This document shows positions 14,297 to 64,000 of a DNA stretch of 64,000 bases, one piece after another. The translations under genes were made by a program, and so were the position numbers. Where the stretch lies: NCBI GenBank assembly GCA_025617745.1, contig CM046858.1, forward strand, positions 30,580,534 through 30,644,533, given 5' to 3'. The DNA comes from Heliocidaris erythrogramma (lineage: Eukaryota > Echinodermata > Echinoidea > Camarodonta > Echinometridae). Position 1 is the first letter of the stretch. Each line of letters starts with the position of its first letter. Under the pieces are notes generated by a model. It worked only from the letters and a program-made list of their open reading frames with translations, made no database searches and was not told the origin of the DNA.

Positions 14297-14370
14297 GTAG
14301 ACCGAAAATTCTGTCTCTCGTTCGTTAGCTACGACGACCTAACGAACACGAGACAGCATTTTCGGTCTAC
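14297..14370. repeat. Inverted repeat straddling the start of the tandem array
   Basis: Arms at 14297-14328 and 14339-14370 (GTAGACCGAAAATTCTGTCT... and its complement) are separated by a 10-base loop. The array boundary (14325) falls inside the left arm, so only the first unit has the full hairpin. Confidence 0.85.
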
Positions 14371-16625
14371 TTCACCGTAACTCCAGGGAGCTCCAACGCG
14401 TTGAAGCTCCCTGGAGTTACTTCACCCACGGCCCTTCACCGTATTCTGCGAGGGGTTCAAACATATAATATGGTCGAATTTCCCCTTGCCGCTCGAGCGT
14501 CTTTGCCTTCGGGGTCTGATAAATCATCCAGATGATAAATCAGAGTTCGTATCTGCATGGCTCAGAAAAGTCCTCCAACTCGGAATCGCAGGCACTTTTC
14601 CTCTCTCTAGGCCTATATAAGTTACTCGAATTCAGCCAAAATCTAAGTCAGTACTAATGTACTATGTAAAGCGAAATAAAAAAAAAAAGCCGCAAGCGAA
14701 ATAAACAAAACAAAGGCTTTAACCAGTCGCTATGTACGAGTGGAACATAGTCAATGCCGTTCTAAAGATGTGTAGTACATACAGATGCATAAAACGGCTG
14801 TGCACGTGTTTATGACCAATGCAACATTTTCGTTCGGCAAGTTCAGATGGATGAGAACATTGTTCAAAAGAAAAGCTAAAATACAAAACAAGAGCTGTAT
14901 ATTTGGGCAAAAGCGTTTTCTGATCTTGTAGAAAATATATTGCTAATGATTATTCACTCCTAAGATTATACTGATTAATTTCCTTTTTTCATAAATTGTC
15001 CGTTGAACAGAGGGGTCAAATACCGCATTCTGTGTACAATATTATATGCTGCAGCCTGCAGATCTTGTGCCTCTTACTTTTCATACGTCACTTAGCTACG
15101 ACGACCTAACGAACACGAGACAGCATTTTCGGTCTACTTCACCGTAACTCCAGGGAGCTCCAACGCGTTGAAGCTCCCTGGAGTTACTTCACCCACGGCC
15201 CTTCACCGTATTCTGCGAGGGGTTCAAACATATAATATGGTCGAATTTCCCCTTGCCGCTCGAGCGTCTTTGCCTTCGGGGTCTGATAAATCATCCAGAT
15301 GATAAATCAGAGTTCGTATCTGCATGGCTCAGAAAAGTCCTCCAACTCGGAATCGCAGGCACTTTTCCTCTCTCTAGGCCTATATAAGTTACTCGAATTC
15401 AGCCAAAATCTAAGTCAGTACTAATGTACTATGTAAAGCGAAATAAAAAAAAAAAGCCGCGAGCGAAATAAACAAAACAAAGGCTTTAACCAGTCGCTAT
15501 GTACGAGTGGAACATAGTCAATGCCGTTCTAAAGATGTGTAGTACATACAGATGCATAAAACGGCTGTGCACGTGTTTATGACCAATGCAACATTTTCGT
15601 TCGGCAAGTTCAGATGGATGAGAACATTGTTCAAAAGAAAAGCTAAAATACAAAACAAGAGCTGTATATTTGGGCAAAAGCGTTTTCTGATCTTGTAGAA
15701 AATATATTGCTAATGATTATTCACTCCTAAGATTATACTGATTAATTTCCTTTTTTCATAAATTGTCCGTTGAACAGAGGGGTCAAATACCGCATTCTGT
15801 GTACAATATTATATGCTGCAGCCTGCAGATCTTGTGCCTCTTACTTTTCATACGTCACTTAGCTACGACGACCTAACGAACACGAGACAGCATTTTCGGT
15901 CTACTTCACCGTAACTCCAGGGAGCTCCAACGCGTTGAAGCTCCCTGGAGTTACTTCACCCACGGCCCTTCACCGTATTCTGCGAGGGGTTCAAACATAT
16001 AATATGGTCGAATTTCCCCTTGCCGCTCGAGCGTCTTTGCCTTCGGGGTCTGATAAATCATCCAGATGATAAATCAGAGTTCGTATCTGCATGGCTCAGA
16101 AAAGTCCTCCAACTCGGAATCGCAGGCACTTTTCCTCTCTCTAGGCCTATATAAGTTACTCGAATTCAGCCAAAATCTAAGTCAGTACTAATGTACTATG
16201 TAAAGCGAAATAAAAAAAAAAAGCCGCGAGCGAAATAAACAAAACAAAGGCTTTAACCAGTCGCTATGTACGAGTGGAACATAGTCAATGCCGTTCTAAA
16301 GATGTGTAGTACATACAGATGCATAAAACGGCTGTGCACGTGTTTATGACCAATGCAACATTTTCGTTCGGCAAGTTCAGATGGATGAGAACATTGTTCA
16401 AAAGAAAAGCTAAAATACAAAACAAGAGCTGTATATTTGGGCAAAAGCGTTTTCTGATCTTGTAGAAAATATATTGCTAATGATTATTCACTCCTAAGAT
16501 TATACTGATTAATTTCCTTTTTTCATAAATTGTCCGTTGAACAGAGGGGTCAAATACCGCATTCTGTGTACAATATTATATGCTGCAGCCTGCAGATCTT
16601 GTGCCTCTTACTTTTCATACGTCAC
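14325..16625. repeat. Three tandem 767-bp units
   Basis: Units start at about 14325, 15092 and 15859 and are essentially identical. I see one difference, AAGCG versus GAGCG after the poly-A tract near 14694, 15461 and 16228. Each unit has a 44-bp near-perfect palindrome (14377-14420 in unit 1), a promoter-like GC region, an A-rich run and a 63-codon minus-strand frame of no known family. The near-identity means recent duplication or ongoing homogenisation. A possible assembly artefact should be kept in mind. Confidence 0.92.
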
Positions 16626-16801
16626 TTGGGGGTTAGCCAATCAGCTCACAAGTTTTAAGGAACGGTCCCAAAACCTTTACTTTTCCCCCTTTTTCGCCAA
16701 AACGAGACATAATTTGGACAATCGATTGGCAGATTTGTGATTAGAAGGCAAAACTACATGGAAAGAGCACCCATTTTCTCTCTAATTTAGTCAACCTTTA
16801 A

Positions 16802-18905: not shown

Positions 18906-19213
18906 AGTCGCATTTTTTGAAATTTCATTTTATTATTATTATTCTCCGTTTCATGGGCTTTGATTTGGTATATAGTTCAACTCTAGAGAGTGAGTATTAG
19001 TGCATATAATAGCTTTTGAAGCTTGAGTAAAGTAGGAATGTGAAAAAGTATTTCTTCGAGAAAAACGCTTCCAAAGTTTGACTTCCGTTTTGCTGACATG
19101 CAGCATTTTCCGTTTGTAATGTTAACTAGATTTGGATAAAACCCTTAGCAACCGTTTATTAATTCTAATAAAAACTAGTCCTTATGTTTCTTTAGGATCT
19201 CTTCTCATGAAAA
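18906..19213. other. Spacer, AT-rich, no gene
   Basis: AT-rich sequence with a short ATT run (about 18932-18944) lies between the LINE piece and DIRS copy C2. Nothing was recognised. Confidence 0.5.
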
Positions 19214-19458
19214 TCAAGAAAATTATAACTAATTTTGTTATTTACTAGATAAATCTATGTATCTACCTATTTGCTAGTTTCCCAAACTATGCCGTCATTC
19301 GAGAAAAACTAAGTCTTAAACGCGCAGCCCCTGCCCGCGCGCGCGTACTCCCCGTCCACCAATCCAATCGCGCCACCGCCATACTCTTCCTCTTCCGAGC
19401 AGTCAGAGACAGTTCTAGGACATGATGTCAGACAAGGAGAGGGGCTGGAGGGAGGGAC

Positions 19459-19553
19459 ATAGGTAGATACATAGATTTATCTAGTAAATAACAAAATTAG
19501 TTATAATTTTCTTGATTTACAGCAATAAATCGATGTATCTACCTATTTGCTAG
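19459..19553 (-). repeat. Internal complementary region of DIRS C2
   Basis: The left half is the complement of the right outer end (19217-19280). The right half (CTTGATTTACAGCAATAAAT...) is the complement of the left outer end (25215-25259). In DIRS replication the ICR is thought to template rejoining of the ends into a circle. Confidence 0.85.
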
Positions 19554-19600
19554 AATAGCACGGATAAAAACCCGGGTGGCATGTCCCGGGACGGGAGTAA

Positions 19601-20800
19601 CTAACGCAGGGCAGACAGAGACGACGAAGCAGCTCTCAACCCAGAGGTTGCAAATCTAACCTCACCCGAAGGAACATCCTTAAGATAGAAGGATGTGAAG
19701 GAAGTAGGGGAACGCCAAAAAGCGGCCCTCAAAATGTCTTCCAAAGGAAGACCCTGAAAAAGCGCCCAGGAGGTGGAAACACTCCTAGTATCGTGCGCTC
19801 GTGGAGGATTCTCAGACAGGAGAGCATCCGAACCCGCAGCTTGGATAGCCTCGACAATCTCCCGTGATGCTGGGGAATAAGGGTGACGGGAAATGAGAAA
19901 GAGCTGATCCTCCTTACGAAAAACCTTAGTCCTATCCAAGTACCATTTGAGAGCCCTAACAGGGCACCAAGACCTATCCTCCTTGACAGAAGAGAAATCT
20001 GACAGAGGACTCAAGAACACTTCGATTGAGCCCGAAGAATCCGTCTGATTCTTAGCAATAAATGAAGGTCGAGGGACAAGACGTACACCTTGCCTTTCCC
20101 ATCTGATATGCCCGGGCGCAGTAGAGAGAGCCTGAATAGTGCTTCTCCTCTGCCCGGAAGCAATAGCGATGAGGAAAGCGGTCTTAATCGAGAGATGGTG
20201 TAGTGACGCTTTGGACAACGGCTCAAAGGGCGGTTTGGCCAAGGCGTCTAAAACCAAAAAAACCACGCAGGAGTCAACTGGCGATTTGCCGGTCGTTTCA
20301 AAAAGAAAGACCTCAGCAAATGAGTCAAGAAAGGAGAGTTTGAAACTCCCGAACCATCAGTAAAACCAAGATGAACCGCAGCAATAGCTGACCGGTAACC
20401 ACGAATGGTAGAGAGGGACCTGCCCTTATCAAAAAGGGCGATAAGGAAATCCGCAATAGCACCCACCGGGGCAGAACGGGAAGAAAATCCCTTCTCCCCA
20501 CACCAATCATGAAAGGCTTCTAATCTCGAGTTGTAAACAGCTCGGGTAGACTCTCGTCTGCTCTGGACTATGAACAGGGAGGCTCTCTCAGAGAGTCCTG
20601 CAGTCCTTGCATCCTCCCCGATAGAGGCCAGGCGGTCAAATGTAGAGCCGTCGGCCGATGGTGGAGGATCCCGGATAGGGGCTGAGATATGAGGTCTGCT
20701 CTCTGGGGAAGGGAGAGAGGTCGACCGTCCAGCAGAGACAGAAGAAGAGGAAACCAAGGTCTCCTCGGCCAGCGAGGTGCCATGAGCAGGACCCACGCCT
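19601..20800 (-). pseudogene. Tyrosine recombinase region of DIRS C2 (fossil)
   Basis: Core recombinase landmarks are visible: the N-terminal SRRESTRAVYNSRLEAF and LSTIRGYRSAIAAVHLGF, the first catalytic Arg in IASGQRRSTIQAL, HxxR in AHDTRSVSTSWALF, and the Tyr in FTSFYLKDV. It is split between frames and broken, but all the landmark residues can be seen. Confidence 0.82.
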
Positions 20801-22612
20801 GATCCTCCTGAATCTTCCTCAGGACCTGAGGAATTAAGGAGACCGGCGGGAAGGCGTAACCCCAGAAGTTCTTCCACTGAAGGGAGAACGCATCGAGGGC
20901 CCAAGCTTCCGGATCTCGCACTCGAGAGCAGTATCTCGGGAGGCGATGATTGAGAGCTGTAGCAAACAGGTCTATCTCCAGAGGGGCGGAGACTGAACTG
21001 AGGTAGTCGAAGACCTCTTGATACAGTGTCCACTCGGAGGGGAGACACATGCCCCGGGACAGAAAATCTGCAATCAGATTGTCCCGCCCGGGAACATAGT
21101 AGGCGATCGGGATCACTCGGTGAGACCGACACCACCTCCAAAGTTTGGCGGTTAGATCGTTCAGGGTAGAGGAACGAGTCCCGCCTTGTCTGTTGATGTA
21201 GGCAGCAACAGTGGTGTTGTCCGTCAAGATCAGGACGGAGCGACCTACAATCATGTTCTCGAAATGGCGGAGAGGCATGAAGGTGCCATCAATTCCAAAA
21301 CATTGATGTGGAGCAAGGTGCACAGGTGTGACCAGTCCCCCGAGACCACCTGGTCCGCACAATGGCCGCCCAATCCCTGTAGGGAGGCATCCGTCGAGAT
21401 GGTGACTGACGGAAGGGCCGTGCGAAGAGACTTGCCCTGTAGAAGGAACGACTCTTTCGACCAGGGAATAAGCAGGCGTTTGATTTCCTCGGATAGAGGA
21501 ATCCACACCTTGAGCGAGTCTACACTGGGCTTGAAAAACTTCAGTAGATGACGCTGGAAAGGCCTCATATGAAGTCGACAGTCCTTGAGGACGTCTACAA
21601 GGCTCGATAAGTGGCCCAAAAACTGGAGCCATCGGCCTGCCCGAACTCGACGTAAGAGACGAAGAGATCGAGCTAGTAAGACAATTGTCTGAACTCTCTC
21701 CCGACTGGGGCGGGCAAGTTGGTTCACGATGTCTATTTCCGCACCCAGAGTCAACTCCGACTTGTCCCAGTTGACTATGAATCCTACTTCTTGTGTAGTA
21801 CGAAGAAGTAGTTCCATGTGTGACTGAAGGACGGACACAGAGCTCGCCACCAGGAGCCAGTCGTCCAGGTAAGTGAAAAGTCTCAGACCGCGATACCTGA
21901 GGAAAGCGGCTAAGGCAGAGACAACTCGAGTAAACACTCGAGGCGCCGGTTTCAGGCCGAAAGGTAAGGCCTTGAACCGGAAGGTTTCGCCTTGAAAGGC
22001 GAAGCCTAGAAGGTCCCTTGAAGAAGGGTGTATCGGTATGTGAAAGTAAGCATCTTTCAGGTCTACCGAAATGGCCAAAGTTTCCACGCGGAAACGCTCT
22101 CTTGGAATTAAGGTATTGATGACCTTCATATTCAAGATCATTCTGAGTTTCCCCGAGCGTTTGGGAATTATAAAGATAGGGGAGAGACACAGATGGGGGT
22201 GGTCTCTCACCCTTTCGATCGCGCCCTTTTCTAGCAGCTCTTGAATCTCGGAAGAGATGTGCTCTAGAAAGGGGGGCGATAGTATAGGCGGGTTGCGGCG
22301 GATGGCTACGTGTGGGAGGGGCTCTGCGAGTTTTATGCAGAAGCCTCCTCGCACGATGAAGAGCACAAATTTGTCGTCGGTAATTTCTTCCCAAGCGGGA
22401 AGAAAGTACTGAAGACGGCCGCCAACCCTCTCCTTCAACGCTCGGGGGGCACCCTCAAACTCGCCGCGAATCGCGGGCCGAACCTCGGCCCCGACCGCGA
22501 CTACGATGCCTTCCCCTACCTCGAGGAGAAGGCTCCGCCCTGACCCCCTGTGTGGGAGGGGCACTGGGCTGAACTTGCGGTGCACGAGAGGCATGATAGC
22601 GGGAAGTGCCAC
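20650..22612 (-). pseudogene. RT/RNase H region of DIRS C2 (fossil)
   Basis: RT blocks FIIPKRSGKLRMILNMKVIN, ISVDLKDAYFHIPIHPSSRD, LPFGLKPAPRVFTRV and YLDDWLL are present. RNase H blocks ISTDASLQGLGGH, HINVLEL, LTDNTTVAAYINRQGGTRSS and NLIADFLSRG follow. The C-terminal FATALNHRLPRYCSR and AFPPVSLIPQVL segments are common to DIRS polyproteins. The region is in two overlapping frames with breaks. The recombinase frame overlaps its end, as usual in DIRS. Confidence 0.84.
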
Positions 22613-22689
22613 CGCGTCTAGGTGGAAACCTAGCCTGGGCCTGGGCCTGGGGCTTAGGAGCCGAGGACTTAAGGCGTTTCAGAAGTTCT

Positions 22690-24615
22690 GTCGCCTGCTT
22701 GCGTGAATCAACCTCAAGTTGGATCACATCAGACACCTTACCTCCAAAGAGGTGTTGACCGGAGTGCGGGACTGGCCAAGAGGGCAGGTATGTCCGCATC
22801 CGCAATGCCCAGAGAGGAAAGAGCAAGACTCCTCCTAGCATTAGTGGCTACTGCTGTCGACACAGACAGTTCTGACCACAACGAGCCTGTCACGGACAAG
22901 AGGGCCTCGTCTAGCAACAAGTTCCTGGCTCCTAGTGCGTAGGGAAAGAAGCGTACCCAAGTAGGCCGTCAGCCTCAGGCCAGTCCTGGAATGTGCTTCC
23001 ATCAAGGACTGGAATTTCTCCTTCTTGGCGTAAGGTGTACCTTTAAAGTTGACACCAAGCCTACCACCTACATGTAGGAGGTCACTGGAACAAGACTTTC
23101 TCGTAAAATAATCGAGAGAGTCTTGTTGGGAGAAGGTGAATTCCCTGGCCGGGGGACGGAGCTTGCCAAGGATTGAAAGAGGCTGTGAGGCGAAGTCATT
23201 ATAGACTTGTTTAAAGTCCTCCGTAAGAGGGATGCCCTTGGAGGGACGCTCGCCTTGAAAAAGGAGAGACTGATGTCCCTGATCGGCCCGACTCTGTAAA
23301 AAAGTGTTGGGAAGATATTTCTCCAGCAGGGCTTGAGTCTCTACCGCCAAGGACCGACTGGTCTGGGGTGTAATCTCAACCTGTGAAGAGGCATCATCCT
23401 CCGAAAAACCGGACTGAGAAACCTGATCCCAAGAAGGGCGGTTTAGGCAGTCCCAGGATTCCTCCCCAGGCGGAGCACCAAGTGCCGCTGGAATGGGAGC
23501 AGTCCCGACCGGACGATCAAAGGCTGAACGTGGTCGGGAGACGCCCGAAGTGGGGCGGCAAGACTCCTGTGTGTTGGAACCCAAACACAAGGAGCCGGAT
23601 ACCTGAGAATAGGAACCGGATCCCAATCCACTGGTTGCAGTGGAGTTAGACAAGGGAAAACCAGTGTTCCTAGCCGGATAACCGGCAAAACCGGAATCGG
23701 GACCCGGAAAACCGGTATCCGAACCGGATCCGATATCCGAACCGGAACCGCTATCTGAACCAGAACCGGTATCCGACCCGGACCCGGGTCGGGTAGGGTA
23801 CAGGTATCCCCCCTTCCCCCTTGGGGGGAGGGGTTGGAGTCAGGCGTGGTGGGGAGTACAGACACAGAGTCTGACCAACCACTCCGCTCCACAATGATCT
23901 TGAGATAATTCAAAAGTTCATGGGAAACGCCTAACTCAGAAGAAGTAGTCGCCCCTTTGGGGCTAACCTTCTTCCTCTTGGCCCCCCCTGACACATGAGG
24001 TGAACACACAGTCGGTGTCAAGGGGAGAGAGTCTGTAGGTTGGGCAGTACTCTGGCGCTTACGCTTCTTGGGCAGGTGGGCATGTTTATCGCCCCCTTTA
24101 CCCTTTGAAACGGGCACCGCCTCCGCAGTAGGCCCTGAAGGGAGTACTTTTGGAGGATTACGACTCTTTTTTCCCTTACCCGCCTTGCTTGTGTTAGAAG
24201 CGTGCGGAGAGACAAAAGGAGCCGATCCCTGAGCAAGCACTCCTATGGCTGGAGAGCGAGGAATGCTGCTCGAGCGAGACGAACTGTGGGCAGGGATAAC
24301 ACCCACAGTTTCATCGGTGAGAGGTATTGGCCGGAGGCACACACTCTCACCGTTATACAAGTCTCTTTCTTCGAGAGAGGTATTGGCCGTGTTCCAGCAC
24401 TCACTCTCTCGGTTTTCCCCGCATGAGTTGGTAGTCAAAAAAGACGGCGAACTCATAACGGGGCGAGCCGTACACGAAGTAGGCCCTAACTTACCGACAG
24501 TCGAAGCTCCAGGGAAGATAACGGTGGTGCGAAAGGAACCTCTCGCAGCCAACCCTCCCAAAGCTAGACGATTTCTGATAGGGGAACCACTAGCTGTAGA
24601 TGGAGCCTTCGACAT
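22690..24615 (-). pseudogene. Gag-like region of DIRS C2 (fossil)
   Basis: It has a long N-terminal disordered part (MSKAPSTASGSPI onward), a basic stretch with KKRKRQSTAQP, the minisatellite-coded linker (23680-23790), AALGAPPGEESWDCLNRPSW, and the helical ETQALLEKYLPNTFLQSRAD with FASQPLSILGKLRPP. It is homologous to 7377-8931. It is spread over several frames. Confidence 0.75.
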
Positions 24616-25259
24616 TGCTGTAAATTAAAGACAAGCAAGCAAAGAATATAGAACTAAAAAGGCAACCAAACCACTCACAAAACGGAGTGGGAAAAACTCC
24701 TGTATACGGAGACTAAACAAAAAGGTATAACAACCCACTCACAATACGAAGTGGGAATAAACTCCTGTATACGGAGACTAGTCAACGTTCTCTACAAACC
24801 GCTTGTCTAAGCGCGTTGAATCAACCACCTATAATACACGGGGAAGATGCCCTGACACAGTGTACTAGTACACCGTCTGTGTAAAGCCCACACGGGGAAG
24901 AGAAAACGGCGATCTTTTTTGATTAAATTAACCGTGAAGGAGGTTGACTTATAAAAAGTCCGATACACCAAAATGAGTATTAGGATTTGGTGAACGGGAT
25001 TTTTATTGCGAATAGCAACCAAAAAAGCTTTTGGAGGTAAAAATCTCGCGTTTTAGGCTAAGACTTAGCTCATAGATGTCACTTCACTGACGGGCGAGAA
25101 AGGAAGAGGAAGAGTATGGCGGTGGCGCGATTGGATTGGTGGACGGGGAGTACGCACGCGCGGGCAGGGGCTGCGCGTTTAAGACTTAGTTTTTCTCGAA
25201 TGACGGCATAGTTTGGGAAACTAGCAAATAGGTAGATACATCGATTTATTGCTGTAAAT

Positions 25260-25639
25260 ATGAATTTTAATTCACGGCACTGAAAATGCTTCCCGCATCA
25301 ACTTCGTGCTTTTTTCATTGAGCCTTTCCTACGCCGGTATGCTTTTCTGAAAGGGTTTATTAACCTAGCTATAGTCAAAAGGTTTATAACTCTGTCATTT
25401 TGTGCGGAGAAATGTATACAGTATTAGATTATAATTCAAACTTTCAGGTTTTTATTTCATTATATTTTTTTCTAAATTAATCATGTAAACTTGATTTCTC
25501 TCAACGTTATTTGTTTTCTTTTTAAAGCTTGGATTCGATTGTCGCAAAGCCATTCAATTATGGCAAAATTACTGAATAGACGAGACTTTTCCAACAATGA
25601 TATTGACAGAGATCGTTGATGTCTGAATATAAAGCTTAT
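25260..25639. other. AT-rich spacer, no gene
   Basis: This is AT-rich DNA between DIRS C2 and a degenerate satellite. Nothing was recognised. Confidence 0.5.
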
Positions 25640-27420: not shown

Positions 27421-27849
27421 ACTTTCAATAGATTAAACAGCGATGGCTTAAACCAGCATTATATAAATGAAGAGACATAAGGTACATAAAGTACATGTAC
27501 TTGTTGCAAATTGTTTTACAGAGATCACGTGACTGCGAACGTCCAATGAACAAAGCCACGCGTCGCTAGGGCGGGGCCTAGCGGATGGCTTTCTTTGCAT
27601 GCCAGCTGTCCGAAAAAATAGAAGAGTTGACCCCAAAAAACACTCGTAGAAAAACTGTTTTTTCTACCCTTTCCCCGTTATATTTAGGACTCAATTTTTT
27701 TACAGAGCACTGATGAAACATTGAAGATTCAAATCAGCGAAGAAAAAAAAAAAAATCATCGAAGAAAAAAAAATGAAAGTTTTTAAAGATTTGCCCAATT
27801 TTCTCAAGTTCTAGCCCAGCGACTTCTGTCTCATTTTGTCGTGACAGGT
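27421..27849. other. Spacer with a small GC-rich island
   Basis: The block GGGCGGGGCCTAGCGG (27570-27585) sits in AT-rich DNA, followed by A-rich runs. It resembles a promoter GC box, but no exon follows on either strand. Confidence 0.35.
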
Positions 27850-29913
27850 CACATATCAGACGGCTGATAAAAACTTGTGATGCATATTATCATCGAGGGG
27901 ATGATCGTGCCTACAAACAAGCACGCGGCTGACGTAATCGTCCAAATTCTTCCGACTGAATCTTGGGGACGGAAAGCAAAGCCACGAGCAAGGGGTTGCT
28001 TACCAACATAAGTCCCAGGCTTCGGGTATTCCCAAAGAGGGAACCCCTTGACTGAAGAGAAAAGCCTGAGCCGAAACCGGCTGAGCCAGAGGGAAAGTCT
28101 CAGGTAACCCACGAGAGTGTTGGGGGACCGCACTGGCTTTAGACTCAACATCAGAGTCAGCATCAGGGCTGTCTGTGTGAGAAACCTGACCCCAGGGGGG
28201 CGGATGTATCCACGAACCAAAGGCCTCCTCACCGCCGGTATCGGAGTAGCTCTTCCCGGGAGGCTCTGGGCCTGCCAGGATTGAGCATGACCCTCAAGGG
28301 GCCAAACACGACCGGATAAAAAAGAGCCGGCGTGAGTAAGAGGCTCTTGAGAGCTAGGCACCTGCAAACCAGGGCCTGATATCGGCAGTCCGGAGCCGTA
28401 AAACGGCAAACCGGGGCAAGAATTCAACAATTCGGAGCCGGATACCGGTAGACCAGGGCCGGGAATCGGTGCGGGGTCGGGAATAGTCGAACCGAAACCG
28501 AATAAATTCGGTACCTGGTTCGGATTACCCACGCCTACGGACCGATCATCGTCCGGGCCGGGGTCAGCGGGGTCAGGGGGTAACCACCCGCTCTTCTTTG
28601 CAACTATCTTCACAAGGCGAAGAAGTTCAGCCTGTTCGACCGGTAAGGGAGGAGGATCTTGCATCTCGTGTCAGGAGACCTTATCCTTCTTCCTTTGAGA
28701 GAGACTTGGTCGACTGGTGCCTTTTAGACTTCACGCAGGGAGGGCTTTGGCCCTCTGGCACAGAAGTCGGATCCATGACCGTATCCGGCCTTGCTTGTCA
28801 GGGCGTTCGGATAATGTCTCATGGCTACCCACCTGTTTGGAACGAGGGGTAGCCTTCTCTATAGTGACAAAGGCGGAGCTACAGCTCGGCGAGTCACCAA
28901 GAGCTCCAGTGTCTCTATTCAGGTGGGAGCTTGTTGTCGGGCATCCGACAGGTCCCCCTGTGAGGACGTGAGTGTCAGAGGTCGGAAGACCGGCGAAACT
29001 TACGCCCTGCGTTCGGGGGCCTACGGTCGTTAAACGGGCGACCCGACTGATGTTGTAATGCTGAACACTGCCGGGCTAGCAAACAACAAGTTGCCTGACC
29101 CAGTTCGAGACCCACTGCACGCAGGGGTCCCTAACTTATCTCCCGACGAATAGTCTGGGAAGATAATTCCCCAATGAGTCGACGACCTCACGCCCGTCCC
29201 GGTAGAAAGTGTACTGCGTCTCAAAGAAGAAGAAGCCGTAACACTGGCTCCTGCCGTGTCAGCCTGGTGTACTGGCGGGGGCCGTACGAGTAACCGGAGT
29301 CAAGGAAAAACTCATACCAAAGCTATAGAGTCAATGTGAGACAAAAACCTGAAAATATAAAACAAAAATTAAGTTATATAAACAAGCGCGTGGGGGTGAA
29401 AAATAAAGAGCTCACAGTATTCCTAAATAAGGAAATACAAGCACAACTAAGTGTGAAAGGGGAGCCAACTATCAAACACCCCAAGGGCCCATGCCAAGCC
29501 TGGATCGCACGCCCAGGAAACGAGCGAAAAGCTATGTCACCGGTAGGAACGAAGGAGAAGAAAAGCGAGACCGAAAAATAACTAATTCCCTGTCTTAAAA
29601 CAACGTGACTAGAAAATCCGTACCACAAATAAAATAGGCATTAAATGTGGACAGAAAAATTTATTAAAGCAGATCAGAAAGCGCAAAAAATAGAGATAAA
29701 TCTCAATTTTGGGCGCAGTGACTTATCTGACAATGTTCACTCATTGGCAGCGAGAATGAAAAGAGGAAGATGGCGGGCGTGCGCTCATGCAGGTGACTAT
29801 GGGAAGGCAATATAGCGGGGTGGGGCGTGCGCGAATGTGACTTAAGTTTCTCGGTGGTGGCGTAGTTTGGGTCAACTAGGCTAGGTAAATACATGAATTT
29901 ATTGTAGTAAATC
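27850..29913 (-). mobile_element. DIRS-like retrotransposon, group B, 5' end (copy B1)
   Basis: A Gag-like part (27850-28664, MQDPPPLPVEQAELLRLVKI onward, with a repetitive GPGLPVSGSE-type linker) is followed by the 5' leader. The left terminal repeat (about 29740-29913) has AAGAGGAAGATGGCGGGCG and ends TTTATTGTAGTAAATCA. RT and recombinase are missing. The outer end directly touches the right end of another copy at 29914. It is a fossil. Confidence 0.8.
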
Positions 29914-29975
29914 AGTAAAATCAGAAATGATTTTGTTACTTGCTAGATAAATCTATGTACCTACCTATTTTGCTA
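29880..29975 (-). repeat. Head-to-tail DIRS end junction
   Basis: The left outer end of copy B1 (ATTTATTGTAGTAAATCA) is joined without spacer to the right outer end of copy B2 (GTAAAATCAGAAATG). Over some 90 bp this is the reverse complement of the ICR at 30134-30229, with a few differences. It is the sequence expected at a DIRS circle junction. Confidence 0.85.
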
Positions 29976-30345
29976 GTCTTCCGACTACGCAAGCCATTCG
30001 AGTAATTAAAGTCATGACAGCATATACCCCCCTAGGACCCCGCCTAGGGGCACACACAATCATCCTCTTTACGAGCAGCCCCAGACAAACTTTGACATGT
30101 TGCTAGGCAAGGAGTGGGGTAGAAGGGTGGGACATAGGTAGGTACATAGATTTATCTATCAAATAATAAAATCAGTTCTGATTTTACTGATTTACTACAA
30201 TAAATCAATGTGCCTACCTATTTTGCTAGACCAGCATAAATTCAACTGGGGGGCATGTGCCAAGAGGAAGGTCAACAGGAACCCAAGGAGGACGTTGACG
30301 TTGGAGCTTGCAACGTCTTGTTAGAAAAAGACTCTTCAACTGTCA
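29914..30345 (-). mobile_element. DIRS-like group B 3' terminus with ICR (copy B2)
   Basis: This holds the right outer end (GTAAAATCAGAAATGATTTT...), the right terminal repeat and the ICR at 30134-30229, and then about 100 bp of the recombinase 3' end region, where homology is lost. No coding body remains. The ICR's two halves mirror the outer ends seen at 29880-29975. Confidence 0.8.
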
Positions 30346-30987
30346 GAAGATCTTTTAACCTTATATAGCCTGGGCTATTTTGAAACTGCATAGCCCGGGG
30401 GGGGGGGGGGGGGGGGGGGGGGCTAATTTGGCCCCCCTCAGATCTCGGCCATTTACGTACCGATTGCGACTAAACTTGACGTGTTTGGGTCTCATCATGT
30501 ATTGTGCAAGAATTCATAGTCAAATTCATGATATACATTGTTTTTCTTATTTAATTATGCAAATATGCAAATTTTTTTAGATTGATGATTTTCTTTTTTC
30601 ACTTTGTTGACCAATTCTTATGTATTTCTTTGTTTTTAATTTTTTACGCATTTCTTTGTTTTTAAATCTTTTGTTTTTCATTGTTCTGTTATATAGAATA
30701 GTTAGATGATAGCCAAAAGAGATGTTATCTGAAGAAAAACTTCTTCTGAAAACACTTCTTGTAAAGCCCATATATTGTATACACAAAATTATTGGAAACC
30801 AACATTTTTTGTGACATTGGTCATGAATATGTGCTATAACTCTGCAACCGTACCCCCGATTTTCACAAATAGGGTCTTAAAATGTGCGGGAGATGTAAAA
30901 GAAAAAAGTCATGAAATTTCAGCACGAGATCTTTTCGTGTTAAAAAATTATCGCCAAAAATGTCGAGGGGGACCAATGCGGGTTAAA
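30346..30987. other. Spacer with G26 homopolymer
   Basis: A run of 26 Gs (30397-30422) is followed by AT-rich sequence. A small inverted pair, TAGCCTGGGCTA and TAGCCCGGG, sits just before the G run. No gene was found. Confidence 0.55.
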
Positions 30988-32032
30988 TAAAAAGATGTGA
31001 AGGAAGTGGAGGAGCGCCAGTAGGCTGCCCTCATAATGTCCACTAGGGGCACCCCCTGGAAAAGAGCCCAAGAGGCACTGATGCCCCTGGTATCGTGAGC
31101 ACGGGGCTTCCCATCATTCACAAGGGCCTCCGGCCGAGCAGCCTGGATCGCTTTGACAATCCATCTAGAAATGGATTCTCTGGAAGCAGGGGAAATGGGC
31201 TCTCGAGTGATGGCAAAAAGCTGATCACTCGAAGAAGAGACTTAGTCCTATCTAAATACCATTTCAAGGCCTTCACCGGACGCCAGACCTTGTCCTCCTG
31301 CACTGAGGAATGGGCCGACAATGGTCTAAGACAAATCTCAACTGGTCCAGAGGAAGCACTCTGATTTTTGGCAATAAAGGAGGGCTTGGGTATCAGTCGC
31401 ACACCATGGTTCTCCCAACGGATGTGACCCGGTGTGATACACAGCATGGAGAGTACTCCTCCTCTGTGCGGAAGCAATGGCAACTAAAAACAGCGTCTTG
31501 ACCGTCAAATGGTGAAGGGACGCTTTACCCAAGGGTTCAAAGGTGGCTTCGCAAGCCCATCAAGGACCTTGGGTAGACTCCAAGATGGAGTCAGGATATG
31601 AGTGGATGGACGCTGCAAAAAGAAGGAGCGAATCAACTTAGCCAAAACAGGGGAGTTGGAGACTCCTGAACCATCAACAAAACCAACGTGGATGGCGGCA
31701 ATAGCCGAACGATAGCCATGTATGGTTGAAATCGATCTACCCTTATCGAAAAGGGAGATCATAAAATCGGTAATAACACCAATGGGGGCTTCACGTGGCG
31801 AGACACCCTGATTCTCGCACCAAGAAAAGAAGGCCCCTAGACCACAGTTGTAGAGATCTCTAATGGAGTCTCTACGGCTTCTCATCACAAACTGGGAGGC
31901 CCTCTCGGAGAGCCCCGAGTTTCTGGCGTCTTCCCAAACAACGGCCAGGCAGTCGTTGGAGAAGAGCAAACACCTCCGGATGAAGAGTCCACTCTGACGG
32001 GAAGCATTTGCCCAGAGACAGAAAATCCGCGA

Positions 32033-33421
32033 TCAGATTGTCCTGACCGGAATAATGTTCATAGACCGGCACCACCTCCACAACTGGGCAGCTAAGGTGT
32101 TCAGAGAGGAAGACCGAGTGCCGCCTTGGCGATTGATGTAGGCAGCTACTGTGACATTGTCCGTAAGAACGAGTATAGTGCGACCAACAAGACTGGGCCT
32201 GAAATGAAGAGACAGGCTGACCGCCATCATTTCCAAAACGTTGATATGGGGCATAACTCTCAAGTGAAACCAGTCCCCTGAAATCATCTCGCCCCGGCAA
32301 TGACCGCCCCACCCGAGAAGGGAGACGTCTGTCGTCAGAGAAACTGATGGAAGTGCGGTGCAGAGAGGTTTGCCTTGGGCAAGAAACGAACTGTTCGACC
32401 AGGGGGCGAAAAGGAGCTTGATATCTCTTGTGAGTGGAATCCACCCCAAAGGAGAATCTTTGCCAAGTCTGAAAAATTTCATGAAGTGCCTCTGAAAGGG
32501 CCTCATCAACAGCCTGCAGTCTGGCAAGACGTCCACTAGACTGGCCAGATAGCCCAGGAATTGAAGCCATTGTGTGGCTCTGACCCTGCGGGCCACTCGC
32601 AATGACCGTGCGGTCTTGGTGATAGTCCGAATTCTATCCCAACAGGGGCGGGCAAGCTGATTCGTGATATCTATCTCCGCACCTACGTACACCGGGGTAC
32701 GTGTGGGAGATAATTCCGATTTTTCCCAGTTTATCAGGAAGCCTAAGTATTGCATTAGCCGCAGTAAAAGGCATAACTGATCCAACAGGAGGGACTCTGA
32801 GTTTGCAACTAGGAGCCAATCGTCTAGATAGACAAAAAATCAGAGGCCGCGGTTCCGTAGAAACGCGGCTAGGGCCGACACTAATCGGGTAAAGACTTGA
32901 GGGGCCAGCCTCAGCCCGAAGGGCAGGGCACGAAACCGAAAGTTTCTCCCTGGAATGCGAATCCCAGCAAATTTCTCGACAGAGAGAGGATGGGAATGTG
33001 AAAGTATGCGTCTTTGAGATCGAGGGAGATCGCAGATCAAGGGCAGAATAGATGCCAAGGTCTCCATGCGAAAATGCACTGGAGGTATAAACCTGTTGAT
33101 CCTTTTCATGTTTAGAATCATACGTAAACTTCCCGAGCGCTTGGGAATGACAAAAATTGGGGAGAGACAGAGATGAGGATGATCTCTCACCCTTTCTATG
33201 GCGCCCTTTTCCAGCAGCGTGGCGATCTCTGAGGAGATGTGCTGCTGAAAAAGGGCGGACATTGGAGGCGGGCGGATTCTGATAGCGCCGTCTGGAATAG
33301 GCTCTATCAGATCTATGTAGCAGCCGTCGCGCATGACGGATAGCACAAAGGCGTCGCCGGAGATTGCCTTCCAAACTGGGAGGAATCTCCGGAGCCGCCC
33401 GCCTACACTGTCCACAAGCAC
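32033..33421 (-). pseudogene. RT/RNase H region of DIRS B3 (fossil)
   Basis: It contains the RT front (RDHPHLCLSPIFVIPKRSGS), LPFGLRLAPQVFTRLVSAL, and then YLGFLINWEKSELSPTRTPV, the RNase H start LPSVSLTTDVSLLGWGGHCR, HINVLEMMAVSL and AAYINRQGGTRSSSLN. It is spread over several frames. Confidence 0.8.
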
Positions 33422-33599
33422 CCGGGGTAAGGTATCAAAAGGCCGATTTGGGCCTGACCGGGGCCTTGGCGGCGGTCTTAGGCCCCCCTCTTACTCCCGC
33501 CGAGCCTCTACGACTGCCCCACCACGGCGCCTGGGTAGGGGCTCAACCCGAGGGATAGTCACAGTCACTCAACGATTTAAGGGGTTAGCGCCTGTCGAG

Positions 33600-34935
33600 A
33601 CCGACTTAGACTTCGGAAAGGGCCGAGCAGGCTGAGTGGGCAAGAATTGTCTGGCCATCTCCTTTGCCTGTTTGCGACCCTCTATCTCTTTGTGGAAGAC
33701 CTAGTTAAACCGGCCCCAAAAGAGATTGGGATGAGAGGAAGGGATACCCCGCAAGAGAGGTAGGATGTCTTTCTCTAGCACTCCCAGTGTGGAGAGCGCC
33801 AACTTGCGGCGTTGATGAGTGATTTCAATCGCCGCTGATGAGAGCTGAGACCACTGAAGTCCAGCTAACAAAAGCAGGAGTTCATCCAACAAATTGGAGT
33901 CCTCCTCAGTCACATTCAGTTTAACTGATCTGGCCCGAAGGTGTAACAGTGAACCCAAGTACGCCGATAGTCTTAAGCCCGAACCGACTTTGGTTTCAGG
34001 GCTCACTTGGGGCTTTCCGGCGGTTCTACAGGACTGATACTTAAAGTTGACATTCAGACGTTGTCCCATACCAATAATTTCGTGGGATAAACCCTTGGCA
34101 GAAAAGAAGCCCTGGGTATCCTCCGGATAGAAAGAGAAGGCACTACCATAGGGACGTCGGGTAGCCCGACCCGCATCGGCGAATGCCTCCCTATCCCCAT
34201 ACTCCTCTGTAAGAGGAATACCGGGAGATGGGCCATACTGTCTGAATAACAGCGATGGCTGATCACTGTACTACTAGACTTGGGGAAAATTTCCGGCATA
34301 TACTTCTCTAACAGGGCCTTGGCATCTGCCGCCATAGCCTGACAAGGCTGGGGGTCCAAGCCGGCCTGAGATTCTGAAACAGACAGGGTAGAAACCTGCG
34401 AGACAGAATCAAACTCGGGAGTAGTCCGGTGGAGAAAATCCCGGGGGGGTGGTTATGCCAACGGACCAAGAGCCGCAATCACGGGAGGAGCAGGCCGAGA
34501 TACCGCCTTCGGACAAAATTGTCCCAAGGCTCTGATCATGTATATCGGAGACCAGGAGAACACCAGGGTCCCACTCAGGAACATCCTCCACCAGTGACAA
34601 CTGACTGGGAAGAACCTCAGAGTCTCAGTAGCCGGCAGCGTCGGGGGGTTAGTATCCCAACCTTGCTGCTCAGTAAAGAGTCTCATTAATCTGAGCAATT
34701 CAGATTGAGAGTCGGGGGGAAGAGAGGGCTGAGCCTTCTCACCCGACTTGGGTTTATCCTTGGATTTACCCTTCTTGGATTTAAGCTTCTTAGCGGGGGT
34801 GTGAGCCACCGCAGTAGAAGACCGTTTAGAAGCACGGAAGTGTTTGGCTGCAGTATAGAAGCCCCAATACCCAAATTGTCCGGACCGGGCTCTCCAGTGG
34901 GAGGGAGTAATTCGGCCGCAAACCCAGGTGTAAAG
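33600..34935 (-). pseudogene. Gag-like region of DIRS B3 (fossil)
   Basis: It contains MAHTPAKKLKSKKGKSKDKP (basic N-terminal part), QSELLRLMRLFTEQQGW (shared with group A as SELLSMMRVFAQLQGW) and the helical GSGLRLSAYLGSLLHLRARS. The match to group A gag shows that the groups share one ORF1 ancestor. It is broken. Confidence 0.7.
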
Positions 34936-35436
34936 TTTACTTTTTCACTCTTTTTGACAGTCAAATTAGAAATCATGAATAATTCATTTTGTCAACCAAG
35001 CATTTGCATATGAGGTTATAAGGTCTGGTCAGTCATTTTCACATGTATGCACATATGCTTAATTACTGTGACCTTAGGTGACATTGAGCAAGTATTTTTT
35101 GTTATAGCGCCAACTAGTTGCCAGCTACAAATCAAATGATGGTAGAGCAGTAAGGATGGAAGACTGTTTTTGAGCTAAAGAAATCTTTTTTTATTCAGAG
35201 CATCCTGATCCAAGGTTGCTTTTTACAGTCAAGTATGGAGGCAAAGAGGTTAGTTGATACATTCATTTCATTATTATTTTAAATTATAATACTATAAGCT
35301 CAAAAGAAGTCGGTATAATCTTGTTTTGGCCCATTGAACATTGCAAGTCAATTCAGTAATGTACATTATGTATGTGTATAAATGCAATGCATTTGCCATA
35401 GTCTGTGTTCAGTATACATTACAAAATGACTTCCTG
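34936..35436. other. Intron sequence, no gene
   Basis: AT-rich DNA between DIRS B3 and the foldback element. No repeat or exon was recognised. Confidence 0.5.
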
Positions 35437-37204
35437 GTATTGTAGGCTTTTGCTAAACAGTCGGGTAACGTCGCGTCGCGTTAGTAGAATTTAGTATTTT
35501 TCAGGAAGGTGTCTTCAAGGGGACAAATTGAAAAAGAGTCCATCTCAGTATGATTTTCCCGTTTTCAGGCTAAAAACGACAAACAAGGGAATAAAGAAAA
35601 CAATAGAAGGATAATGCAAAGAAAAACATGAACTATGAAGAGAGAATAGAAGGGTAGGAAGGATGGAAGAAAATATGATAGGATAAAAGCAAAGAATGTT
35701 TTAAGGAAAGTAAGTAAAGATGGGAAGCAGAAAATGATTTTAAAAAGAATAATATGAAAGATAGAGAAATGATAGGATAAAAAAGTTTAACTTATATAAA
35801 GAAAGACAGAGAGAGAAATGATAGAAGGATAAAGATTAACGTGAGGAAGGTGGGGGAGAAAATGATCAACAGGAAACAAAGAATATCATAACGAGAGGAA
35901 GGATGGAAAGATAATTGATTGAAGGATAAAAGCAATTAAGAAATGACAAAGCGAGAGATAGAGAGAAAAATGATAAAAAGATAAATATAAACATGAAGAA
36001 AGGTGGAAGAGAAGATGATAAAAGGGAACAAAGAATAACAAAGTGAAGATGGAAAGCAATAAAAAAAAGAGGATAAAAAGAATAAATATAAACAGTAACA
36101 TTATGAAAGATGGAAAACAAAATGATAAAAGCAATAAAAGAATAACATATAATGAAAGGAAAGGTGGAAAGAAAAAATTAATAAAAGGATTAAAAACAAC
36201 TGCAAAATTAGTAATTACACGATCCTTAATATATGTCCCCGCCAGAAGTGAAGATCTGTGGAATGGCTGTTAATTTATGTAATTTCTGATAGAACCTTGA
36301 AGATAAATGTGAGAAATGAATTATCAAATTAATATTTTATGACTATAAATGCATTTTCTGTTGATTTTGAATAAATTACAATAAATTTGCATAATTAATG
36401 AATTTCAAAATTCTGTGTATAGAGGTTTGACAGCCCCTACCCAGCCCTATCAGATAAAACAATCAGAATCAAAATCGGCGCAAATATCAGATAAAACAAT
36501 CAGAATCAAAATGGGCGCAAATATTCATTTTTGAATGAGGAGCGCCTCAAAACTTAAATAAACAAACAAACATCGGCCAAGAAATGACGGAGAAGTAGCA
36601 TTTTCTAACTTTTTGAGCACACATGGACGGACGGACGGACGGACACGCATTTTATCCTATCATTTCTCTATCTTTCATATTATTGTTTTTAAAATCATTT
36701 TCTGCTTCCCATCTGTACTTACTTTCCTTAAAACATTCTTTGCTTTTATCCTATAATTTTGTTTTCCTTTCATCTTTTCTTTCGTTATGTTATTCCTTTA
36801 TTCAAATTATCATCTTCTCTTCTATCTTTCCTTATGTTACTCTTAATATCTTTATCCTTCTATCATTTATGTCTCTATCTTTCTTTGTTATTCTTTGTTT
36901 TTATCCACTTATATTTACTTTCCAACTTTCCTTTCGTTGTATTCTTTGTTTCCTTTCATCATATTTTCTTCCATCCTTCCTACCCTTCTATTCTCTCTTT
37001 ATAGTTCATGTTTTTCTTTGCATTATCCTTCTATTGTTTTCTGTATTCCCTTGTTTGTCGTTTTTAGCCTGAAAACGGGAAAATCATACTGAGATGGACT
37101 TTTTTTCAATTTGTCCCCTTGAAGACACCTTCCTGAAAAATGTTCGAAAATTTCTACCAACGCGACGCGACGTTACCCGACTGTTTAGCAAAAGCCGTAT
37201 TGCA
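35437..37204. mobile_element. Long foldback DNA element with 8-bp target duplication
   Basis: Inverted ends begin GGCTTTTGCTAAACAGTCGG at 35445 and mirror at 37196. They are flanked by GTATTGTA (35437-35444) and GTATTGCA (37197-37204), an 8-bp duplication with one mismatch. Arms of roughly 350-550 bp are almost pure purine on the left (GGATGGAAGAAAATATGATA type) and pure pyrimidine on the right. The middle has a 37-bp direct repeat (about 36450-36523) and a GGAC run (36626-36643). No transposase is visible. GG-ended repeats with 8-bp duplications occur in Merlin, while hAT and P also make 8 bp, so the family is open. Confidence 0.7.
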
Positions 37205-37999: not shown

Positions 38000-39350
38000 G
38001 CGTCAAACTCAGCTACAGTTACACCAGGGACTGTGCTTCCCCAACCAGAGCCCGATTCGCATTGACTGCCGGCGGACGGACGGGCTGCTTCATTGCAGCA
38101 CTGCTGGAAAAAGCACCTGGCTGGGGGGAACCAGCAGTCTTCCGCTGCGAGAGCCTGCTTGAAGAGGAGGTCTTCTTAGCGGGGTGCAGATTTGCGATAC
38201 CGGCTGTAATTCCCCCAGACACACCGACGGTGGTCGGGTGTCGGGGGAAGCCAGTACCACTGGGTGAATTCTCGCTAGGCGGTCGGGGGTCGGCAAGACC
38301 CAGTAACATCATTAGCTGACCGCTTAGCGGGCTTACCAGTTAATGCCCCCTCCAGGCTCCCGACGGTGGTCGGGGGTCAAGAGGACCCGGTAATAGTAGC
38401 TACCGTACCCCCCCCCCCCCCAACTGCAGACGCGGTGGTCGTGAGTTGGAGGGAGCCAGAATTGCTAATGACGGGTGTTCGGTCCGAAACCTTCTGAACA
38501 CCTAACTTACCTATAAAGCCTGTCTTGCTCGACCCTCCCGGTACAAAAATACCAGAGCGAGCCGACAGACTGACGCCCTTACCTCCCCTGACCACCGTGT
38601 TAGACTCGCTGGTAGGCGAGCGAAACCCAGAGGTCTCCATCACACTCACTGGGCTGACGCCCTTATAAGTGTGAGTAGTGGAAGGGAGGGAAGAAGAATT
38701 GGAAGAGCACGGAGGCAACTAAGACCTTTATTGCTCTTCCTCCAAAGAACTCATTATCACTTGTAAGGAGATATAAAGGAGTCAAACAATTAAACAAGTG
38801 TAAAGAAAAGGGCGTAATAAGCGAGAGTGAAACGGAATGGAAATTTCAAACGTAGTGTGTGGAAATTTCCCTCCACACACAACGAACAAAAAAACACTCT
38901 AGTAAGGGTATATGCACACAACAGCCACACACACGAAACACCAACGGAATGTAACAGGGCTCAGTGCCCAGGACTACTATACAAAAGAGATGAAAAGTGA
39001 GGTATGGATTTAAGCTCAAATATCTCCAAAATAAATACGTGACAGACATAAACCGACCATAAACAGATACTAAAACAAGTCTAGGACGGAAATATTGGCA
39101 AAAGTCACCAGAAAACACGCTATAAGAGTAGCAAACTCTGAATTTTTACGCAAGATAGTGATTTAGCTGCAACTCTTTAGGCTGCAAGAAGGAAAGAGTA
39201 TTATTGTGTGCGCGCGTCATGCGTACGTGCATAGAGGAAGGCGGGGTCCTAGGGGGTATATGCACTGTCGTGACTTTAATTACTTGAATGGCTTGTGTAG
39301 TCGGAAGACCGGCGAAATAGGTAGGTACATTGATTTATTGTAGTAAATCA
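38000..39350 (-). mobile_element. DIRS-like retrotransposon, group B-like 5' end (copy B4)
   Basis: Gag-like N-terminal linker sequence (about 38019-38718, including VPGGSSKTGFIGKLGVQKVS) is followed by the 5' leader. The left terminal repeat ends at 39350 with TACATTGATTTATTGTAGTA. Its outer repeat (CGTGCATAGAGGAAGGCGGG, then CTTTAATTACTTGAATGGC) is nearly the same as that at 58560-58721, so these two copies form a subgroup. No RT or recombinase is attached. It is a fossil. Confidence 0.75.
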
Positions 39351-51416: not shown

Positions 51417-54272
51417 TGTGCGCACCCCCGTAATCCTATTGTTCCCCTTCGCCACTCACGCGCGGCAACACGCAACGGCCATCTTCCTCTTTTGCGAGCA
51501 ACCCCAAGTAGAAACATGTTGCTTGCAAGGTGCGGGGAAGGAGGGAGGGTCATACATGTAGGTAGGTATATAGATTCATATAGTAAATAAGAAAATCAGT
51601 GCTGATTTTACAAATTTACTGCAATAAATCATATATACCTACCTATTATGATAGACCAGTGCCAACTCAAAGACCGGGAGGCATGTTTCAAGCAGAGGGG
51701 AATAGGATTACAAAGAAGACACAGCGGCCTTCAAGGTGGCTGACGCAAAAATAGCCTCACCTGCAGGGACATCCCTAAGGTAGCAAGAAATGAAGGAATT
51801 GGACGAACGCCAATAAGCAGCCTTCAAAATATCATCAAGCGCCACACCTTGAAACAGAGCCCAGGAAGTGCTGACACTACGAGTGTCATGTGCATGAGGC
51901 TTACTGCCAGATACAAGAGCCTCTGTGCCAGCAGCCCTAATATCTGTAAAGGATCCATCTAGAAATGGAATCAAGAGAAGCAGGAGAAAAAGGCTCTTGA
52001 GTGATCAGGAACAACTGATCATCCTTACGATAAGACTTAGTCCTATCAATATACCATTTGAGAGCTCTAACAGGACACCAAACTTTGTCCTCGCGCACTG
52101 ACGAAAATCCAGAAAGCGGACAAAGAAAAATCTCAACAGGGCCAGAGGAAGCCGTTTGATTCTTGGCAATGATTGAAGCCTTAGGAATCAATCTAACACC
52201 TTTTCTCTCCCAGCGAACATGACCAGGAGTAAGACAGAGGGCATGAAGAGTACTGCGCCTCTGCCCAGAGGCAATGGCTACCAAAAAGAGCGTCTTAACC
52301 ATAAGCTTCGCCAGGGCTTCTAAGACCTTAGGCAGGCTCCAAGACGGGACTAACTTAGAACGCGGAGGACATTTCAGAAAGAACGACCGAATCAAACCAC
52401 TCAACAGCGGGGAATTAGAAATCCCCAAACCATCTGAGAAGCCCGAGTGAATGGCCCCGATCGCTGATCGGTAGCCTCGGATAGTAGAGATGGATCTCCC
52501 TTTGTCAAATAGCGAGATTAGAAAATCCGCAATTGAACCAATAGGAGCCTCAGACGGGGTTTGATTTCGCTCTTTACACCTAAGGAAAAAGACAGAAAGA
52601 CAGGAATTATAAATTTCCCTAGTAGAAACTCTACGACTGGACATTAAAAAGTCCGCGGCTCTATCAGAGAGACCCGACTGTCTTGCAGATTCCCCAACAG
52701 GGGCCAAGCAGTCAAATGAAGGGAATCTGGATTGTGGTGAAGAATCCCCGAGAGGGGCTGCAACACCAGATCCGCTCTTAACGGAAGAAGGAACGGTTGA
52801 GCCGCCAGAAGGCTCATTAGCTCCGGAAACCAACTCCTCCTGGGCCAAAAGGGAGCTATCACAAGCACCCGAGCCCGATCTTCCCTGATCTTCCGCAAGA
52901 CTCGCGGAATCAGCTGGAAGGGAGGAAAGGCAAATCCTCGAAGATTCTCCCAACTGAGAGAGAAAGCATCGAGAGCCCAAGCTCCCCGATCGCGCGCACG
53001 GGAGCAATATTTCGGAAGTTGGTGGTTTAGAACCGACGCAAAAAGATCCACTTCCAGTTGACCCAGGCAACTGCGAATGCGGCAAAAGACCTCTGGATGA
53101 AGCATTCATTCTGACGGAAGACACCTGCCCCGAGACAGAAAATCCGCATTGAGGTTTTCCTGACCGGGGATGAAAGAGGCCACGGGTGTGATCGCCATGC
53201 GACGACACCACCTCCACAGCTGTGCTGCTAGGGCATTCAGGGTAGCAGAACGAGTGCCTCCCTGCCGATTGATATAAGCCGCCACAGTGACAGCATGGCT
53301 ACAACCTGAGTAAAAACCCGAGGGGCTGTGCGCAGCCCGAAGGGAAGAGCGCGAAAGCGAAGTCTCCGAGAGGAAGGAAAACCCCAGAAGAGGGTTAGAG
53401 TTAGACTTAGAGTGAGCGCGAAACTGCGTAATCAAGACAGAGACCTGTTTTCGCGCATCGATTTCTCTTTGAAAAACCGTAGCAAATTGACCGCCAAAAA
53501 GCGAAGGACCCCGAGACGGAACATCCCGGAGAAGCGGTGCGATGTCCGACTCCTTAACCCCAAGGGCCGTAAGAACCAAGACTCTACGATGGTACATGAC
53601 CGAGGCAGCTACAGTGGAAAGCTGTGACCACTGCAAACTAAACCAGACGCTTAATTAGAAGCGCCGCTTCAATGCGGTCATACTCCAGCTTGAAATAGTC
53701 CGCAAGAGAAATACCCTCGAACCCTGCGCACGGGCTGACTGAAAATCAGGGAGATATTAGGACAACAAAGCAATCGCTTCTACCCCACAAAGGGAGAGCG
53801 ACTGAATTTCACAGCAAAAAACCGTCACAACAAACACCGAACACAAAGGCTCGGTGCCAAACGGAAACACACGCAAACACACAGATAATACTATGTCTCA
53901 AAATAAAACTTTGAATCAAAAATCCCTAGCAATCGGTAAAAGTGACTAACAAAACACAAGAGTACTATACTAGTAGTCTAGACGAATATAAGTACCGAAA
54001 AGTGCTTTTAAGATGCGAAAAAGCGCGCTGAAAAGATACAAAAAGACCTGATTTCAGGAGCGCCATGACTCGACATCCTAACTCGTCGGGGGCGAGCAAG
54101 GAAGAGGAAGATGGCCGTTGCGTGTTGCCGCGCGTCAGTGGCGAAGGGGAACAATAGGATTACGGGGGGGTACGCACAATATTGTGACTCATTTGTGTTA
54201 AGTTCTCGAAGGGGTCGCGTAGTCAAGACTACTAGCATAATAGGTAGGTATATACGATTTATTGCAGTAAAT
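51417..54272 (-). mobile_element. DIRS-like retrotransposon, group A (copy A5)
   Basis: This holds a partial right terminal repeat, the ICR (about 51556-51651), recombinase (51708-52650), the RNase H end (52644-53330), a gag fragment (53380-53830), the 5' leader and the left terminal repeat (54080-54272). It has both terminal regions but is only 2.9 kb, so most of RT and gag is missing. Recombinase marks are TIRGYRSAIGAIHSGFSDG, GQRRSTLHAL, AHDTRSVSTSW and FISCYLRDV. It is close to A4 and A7. It is a broken fossil and could be a non-autonomous derivative. Confidence 0.88.
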
Positions 54273-54838
54273 AGGTCTACCTCCAGCGAACCCCAAAGAT
54301 TGTAAATGAGGGAAAAAACCTGGATGGAGCTTCCATTCTAATGGAAGACACCTGCCCGTGATAGGAAGCTTGCAAAAAGACTTTCCTGAACAGGGAAGAA
54401 GGAGGAAACAAGCAAGAACGCTATGCGACGACACCACCAACACAAAAAGAGGCTAGGGCATCTAGGGTGGCAGAGTGGGTTCCTCCCTGCCAATTGATAT
54501 AAGCCGCAACCGAGACATTGTCCGAGAGAATAACAGAGCGACGGCAAAGCTGTCGTCTGAAAAGAAGCAAACCTGCCATAAGAACATTGATATGGGGTAG
54601 ACTCACAAGCTGAGACCAGTCCCCCCAAAACGTGCTGTCGTAGCAAAGTCCGCCCCACCCGTCGAAAATGAAATCGACAGAAGCGGGGGGGAACTTGCCC
54701 CGTGCGAGAAACGCAATGATTGTCTCGCGGGGTAAGTATGCAGTCTCGGCTGGGCAGTGCTAACTGATTCAGAAAATCTATCACTGCCCCCAGAAAACTG
54801 GTCGGCTTGTAGGGATCAGCTCCGATGTCTCCAAATTT
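54273..54838 (-). mobile_element. DIRS-like RT/RNase H fragment, diverged group A (copy A6)
   Basis: Diverged RT/RNase H sequence (with VSVAAYINWQGGTHSATLDA and LPHINVLMAGLL) starts right where the outer end of copy A5 finishes. It has more differences from A4 and A7 than they have from each other, so it is older. No other parts are present. Confidence 0.7.
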
Positions 54839-63963: not shown

Positions 63964-64000
63964 GTCCCCGGAGATGGCCTCCCAAGCGGGGAGAAACGCA

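Follow-up and report, generated by a model that had tools for sequence, protein, structure and literature searches.

In the model of metazoan DIRS1-like elements set out in the available part of PMC3266345, the termini pair with the internal complementary region (ICR), the circle has a 3-bp junction, and this junction recombines with an identical genomic triplet without any duplication. Dictyostelium discoideum DIRS-1 inserts into its own copies (available sections of PMC5633606 and PMC5006619, both citing Cappello 1984). How is such a target chosen? The accessible text of the review (PMC5633606, section 8) describes this self-targeting as having no apparent sequence preference and as perhaps due to homologous recombination, a statement that counts against an AAT-core explanation such as the one put forward below. 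A further parallel is offered by SGI1-type tyrosine-recombinase islands (PMC2297512), where a site-specific element also integrates beside a resident copy; these islands are bacterial and DNA-only, and the parallel is one of mode, with no kinship.

Here we describe an exact end-to-end join of two DIRS1-like elements, called L and R, in a stretch of 64,000 nucleotides from the sea urchin Heliocidaris erythrogramma (the window, to which all positions refer). The locus shares ITRs, an ICR, a probable tyrosine recombinase and clusters with insertions into residents with Dictyostelium DIRS-1 (Cappello et al. 1984, 1985, as relayed in the same sections of PMC5633606 and PMC5006619), from which it differs in the exact contact of two outer ends and in the involvement of two subfamilies. 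Compared with the metazoan DIRS1-like elements of PMC3266345, as far as the available part goes, it has in common a sense strand starting with ATT, a right extension of ~34 nt, termini that match the halves of the ICR, and a length of ~6 kb (element A2); it differs in having two right ends without the expected triplet and in a 5-nt repeat flanking A2. No report of exact DIRS end-to-end joins was found in the DIRS literature, represented mostly by titles and abstract openings, and they are not described in the accessible parts of PMC9210276, PMC5941688 and PMC3212892; they may nonetheless have been published elsewhere. Self-targeting by DIRS elements is not new, and an end-to-end join is an expected by-product of the proposed mode of DIRS insertion, ordinary for the family.

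DIRS1-like elements of the window

Apart from L, the elements fall into three subfamilies: A, with A1 (ending at 9513) and A2 (19212-25259); B2, with right ends at 39641 and 61017, left ends at 1699 and 54272 and a truncated left end at 1162; and that of R, which also holds B3 (ending at 58719). As in DIRS1-like elements, there are ITRs, RT / RNase H, a right extension and an ICR whose halves are complementary to the two outer ends. The left and right ITRs agree at 146 of 151 positions in A2 and at 91 of 98 in R. The right termini match their own ICRs at 52 of 56 positions in R, 56/56 in A2, and 55/56 and 56/56 in two B2 copies, and six left ends match the ICR of their subfamily at between 36/40 and 41/41. 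Pfam RVT_1 is found above cutoff in A2 (E 8e-20) and B2 (E 7e-13) and below it in the pieces of R (0.003), and RT_RNaseH reaches only E 0.13. Phage_integrase matches A2 below the curated cutoff (E 0.0014), with no match in two B2 pieces or in R's pieces; the recombinase regions of R and B2 align to that of A2. Weak PCIF1_WW matches in the DIRS pol stretches 62404-63999 and 20568-22454 (E 0.011 and 0.071) perhaps mark a methyltransferase part. Peptide-pattern and tblastn searches aimed at close relatives gave zero pattern matches in viral_contigs for one YR query, 6 pattern matches and no relative for one RT query, and, in genome_contigs, 23 pattern matches and no relative for one RT query.

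At E 0.001, six queries (RT, RT/RNase H/MT or YR) gave DIRS protein matches on the minus strand only, with zero on the plus strand. AAT outnumbers ATT in the DIRS bodies (590 vs 426), an excess that seems too weak to explain the uniform orientation. The right extension and the ICR of R each carry a palindrome, AAAATCA-n4-TGATTTT (29916-29934 and 30167-30185), whose subfamily A counterpart is AAAATTA-n4-TAATTTT, with one compensatory pair. We make no case for a conserved 7-pair hairpin in the right extension: 5 of 5 distinct rows retain it, yet only one pair varies and 96 of 500 shuffles equal it. Elsewhere in the window, 14325-16627 holds three tandem copies of ~767 bp, 99.9% identical and presumably recent, with no ORF of at least 120 aa.

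The join and its resemblance to the ICR

The left end of L abuts the right end of R with no spacer at 29912/29913, which confirms the spacer-free end-to-end junction of an earlier note on this DNA and moves it by one base (from 29913/29914). The point was placed by splitting the reverse complement of R's ICR after GTAAAT. AATCAG is common to both halves at the join, so that its bases are assignable to neither side alone, and the join is located to within one base. Positions 29882-29968 and 30134-30220 form an inverted match of 87 nt, 90% complementary and 165 nt apart (BLAST E 3e-26). Within 29800-30300 the top ungapped 87-nt inverted match scores 78/87, compared with a maximum of 45 in 200 first-order Markov randomisations, which rules out a chance inverted repeat. 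Placed from 29873 on, the reverse complement of R's ICR agrees with the sequence at 81 of 96 positions; its next-best placements on the plus strand (63, 62 and 61) are all at single element ends. The join also aligns over its full length to the reverse complements of five ICRs of the window (19459, 30134, 39905, 51559 and 61268).

How much of this mirror image belongs to the join itself? Of the 87 matched nucleotides, 56 are R's own right terminus and about 31 come from L. The R share is ordinary DIRS anatomy, since a right terminus mirrors the ICR anyway, and the earlier claim of a ~90-bp junction mirroring the ICR holds for the match as a whole, with 56 of the 87 nt owed to a single element. 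What is particular to the join is the sequence outside R's right end, where 32 nt match the predicted left half at 26/32, compared with only 12, 10 and 14 of 32 outside three other scored right ends; outside six other left ends, the right-half match is 8 to 16 of 34. The truncated left end at 1162 and a truncated right end near 51416 were left out of this scoring. The match includes R's own terminus, as it would if R simply had an extended right end and the join belonged to its normal structure. Similar sequence should then lie outside the three other right ends, where it is absent, and L's ITR and gag-like ORF run on leftward from the join; this possibility is extremely remote.

A false join made by the assembly at repeated ends must also be considered. 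The region is rich in repeats, and a run of 26 G at 30397-30422, ~485 bp from the join, is a spot prone to sequencing or assembly error. Against this, the window is free of any N, and the two sides, coming from different subfamilies, share few bases and would offer no long identical stretch to collapse. An artefact is, in our judgement, very unlikely.

Two partners from different subfamilies

The features on either side of the join are collected in Table 1. L has lost its 3' part (RT, recombinase and right end) as well as its ICR. Its left ITR is 73% identical to 9413-9513 (E 1e-6) and 75% to 25160-25259 (E 2e-8), over ~100 nt each, and 53-63% identical to eleven other aligned ITRs. This ITR extends ~67 nt past the tip that matches the ICR, and the gag-like ORF lies ~1.3 kb inward of it in the orientation correct for DIRS; L can therefore be taken as the true 5' part of an element. 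By eye, R, A1, A2 and a pair of B2 copies carry the gag motif of L as well. Searched by tblastn within the window at E 0.01, the L ORF matches itself only; in the reverse search a piece of R gag matches 37 of its residues (38%, E 0.005).

Table 1. Features at and around the join, with one comparator insertion
Feature	Position	Strand	Basis
Element L, 5' part of DIRS element	27849..29912	-	Gag-like ORF motif at 28631, left ITR, outer end 29912
Gag-like ORF of L, 273 aa	27849..28670	-	Named by motif and position; no Pfam match
Left ITR of L	29815..29912	-	Similarity to left ITRs 9413-9513, 25160-25259
AAT at join, proposed recombination core	29910..29912	.	Role inferred from 3-bp junction model (available part of PMC3266345)
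Right terminus of R with its right extension	29913..29968	-	52/56 to own ICR half, reverse complement
Right ITR of R, conserved part	29947..30045	-	90% to left ITRs 39239-39338, 58609-58709
ICR of R	30134..30229	-	Mirror match; alignment with join
Probable tyrosine recombinase region of R, several broken frames	30975..31954	-	tblastn with A2, B2 YR queries; DNA matches
Methyltransferase-like / RNase H / RT region of R	31968..33490	-	RVT_1 below cutoff
Gag region of R	33701..34944	-	ORFs, tblastn, gag motif
Probable left ITR and outer left end of R	39187..39348	-	90% to R's right ITR
Comparator: DIRS left end inside another DIRS, at AAAT	54272..54273	-	Aligned relatives

The left end of R is likely 39348, judging from sequence comparison; in a shorter relative (57951-58720) an R-like RT stretch runs straight into a left ITR that is also R-like. 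A gap of ~4.2 kb, AT-rich up to ~37900, separates R's gag from the ITR ending at 39348. Part of it is likely R's own 5' region, because A2 and L carry ~1.3 kb from the gag motif to the left end. Within the gap, AT-rich DNA at 35445-37196 has large imperfect inverted repeats and is perhaps another insert.

Left-ITR identity is 60% between L and R, compared with 91% between R and B3 (end 58720). By its ITR and gag sequences, L is placed in a fourth subfamily, distinct from R. The tip alone does not separate the two, as the outermost 32 nt of L are closest to R's subfamily (87.5%). This likeness may be the reason why both elements had been assigned to one group B, an assignment that fits the outermost 32 nt and fails over ITR and gag. 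A dimer of a single element is excluded by these same differences in ITR and gag. With halves from different subfamilies, the join need never have been part of a circle, and probably never was a circle junction. The reading of the locus as a fossil circle junction, or as an insertion at an existing end, accordingly survives in its second form: the exact abutment of outer ends fits end insertion, and the halves come from different elements.

Did the ICR template the join? The left ends at 9513, 25259, 39348 and 58719 match R's ICR at 27/32 or better, and the tip of L matches it at 26/32, so L fits no better than other single left ends and its match is evidence of tip conservation, not of templating. 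The same numbers bear on a heterodimer, in which R's ICR would have served in trans as a splint linking two co-packaged cDNAs end to end, to be circularised and integrated as one unit. R's ICR does pair with both the tip of L (26/32) and R's end (52/56), but the better fit of the other left ends leaves nothing special in this match. We regard a heterodimer as highly improbable; if true, it would mean that DIRS ICRs link unlike elements, building one-orientation arrays like that of this window.

Probable insertion at a resident end

How, then, do two outer ends come to touch without a spacer? Probably, L and R arrived in two independent insertions of like orientation, and the second hit precisely the outer end of the first; the proposed route is circle recombination at AAT. 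The incomer, either R or, with the reverse order, L, would recombine as circular DNA at the AAT closing the resident's end, a reaction presumably catalysed by the incomer's tyrosine recombinase. The outcome would be left end, AAT, right end without spacer, an arrangement that looks like a circle junction and therefore like a reverse-complemented ICR. GTAAAT at a left end may thus serve as a recombination site for an incoming circle and give such a join, and under the model R's own circle junction would now be split between 29913 and 39348. R, which with A2 is one of two elements with both ends, shows no target site duplication.

The two elements may also have inserted apart, with the spacer later deleted exactly between AAT-type end sequences, either through the tyrosine recombinase, with two core sites as its substrate, or through microhomology. 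L-type left ends finish with AAAT and the A2 right end starts with AAT, and either process could yield the sequence. Such a deletion would have to be base-exact at both ends and would take more steps than end insertion, and we consider it unlikely.

For insertion at a resident end, the role of AAT can be judged from the other ends of the window. The left end at 54272 continues into the RNase H stretch of another DIRS, and the nested insertion sits at AAAT. The corresponding site in relatives reads CAAATAG at 1830 and 62780, CAAAAAG at 41380 and AAAAG at 53060 (where the row starts inside the site). AAAT in two of four aligned relatives lends support to an AAT core, as does A2, which has AAT at both ends. 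The right ends of B2 count against it, being preceded by TAC (39641) and AAA (61017), so that AAT is missing at two of four right ends. A2 also has ATGAA directly outside AAT on both sides (19207-25264 with these flanks), a type of 5-nt repeat seen at 6 of the 1381 AAT sites of the window. Either the repeat arose by chance or it could be a 5-bp target duplication; the model predicts no such duplication, and one would count against it. For the left end at 1699 there is no clean empty site, as the bases that precede the adjacent DIRS stretch could not be aligned with the three relatives tried.

We weighed a preference of DIRS for resident ends and did not retain it. Taking 13 ends (8 left, 5 right; two truncated), 2633 AAT/ATT sites and 10 insertions, a rough estimate for this window gives about 0.05 end-to-end joins by chance if any AAT serves, and about 0.13 if AAAT/ATTT (1003 sites) is required; since any AAT yields about 0.05 joins by chance, no end preference is shown. 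Genome-wide counts of joins, which one window cannot replace, would tell whether DIRS circles favour resident ends over ordinary AAT sites. Exact joins of unlike subfamilies are natural records of the DIRS crossover point.
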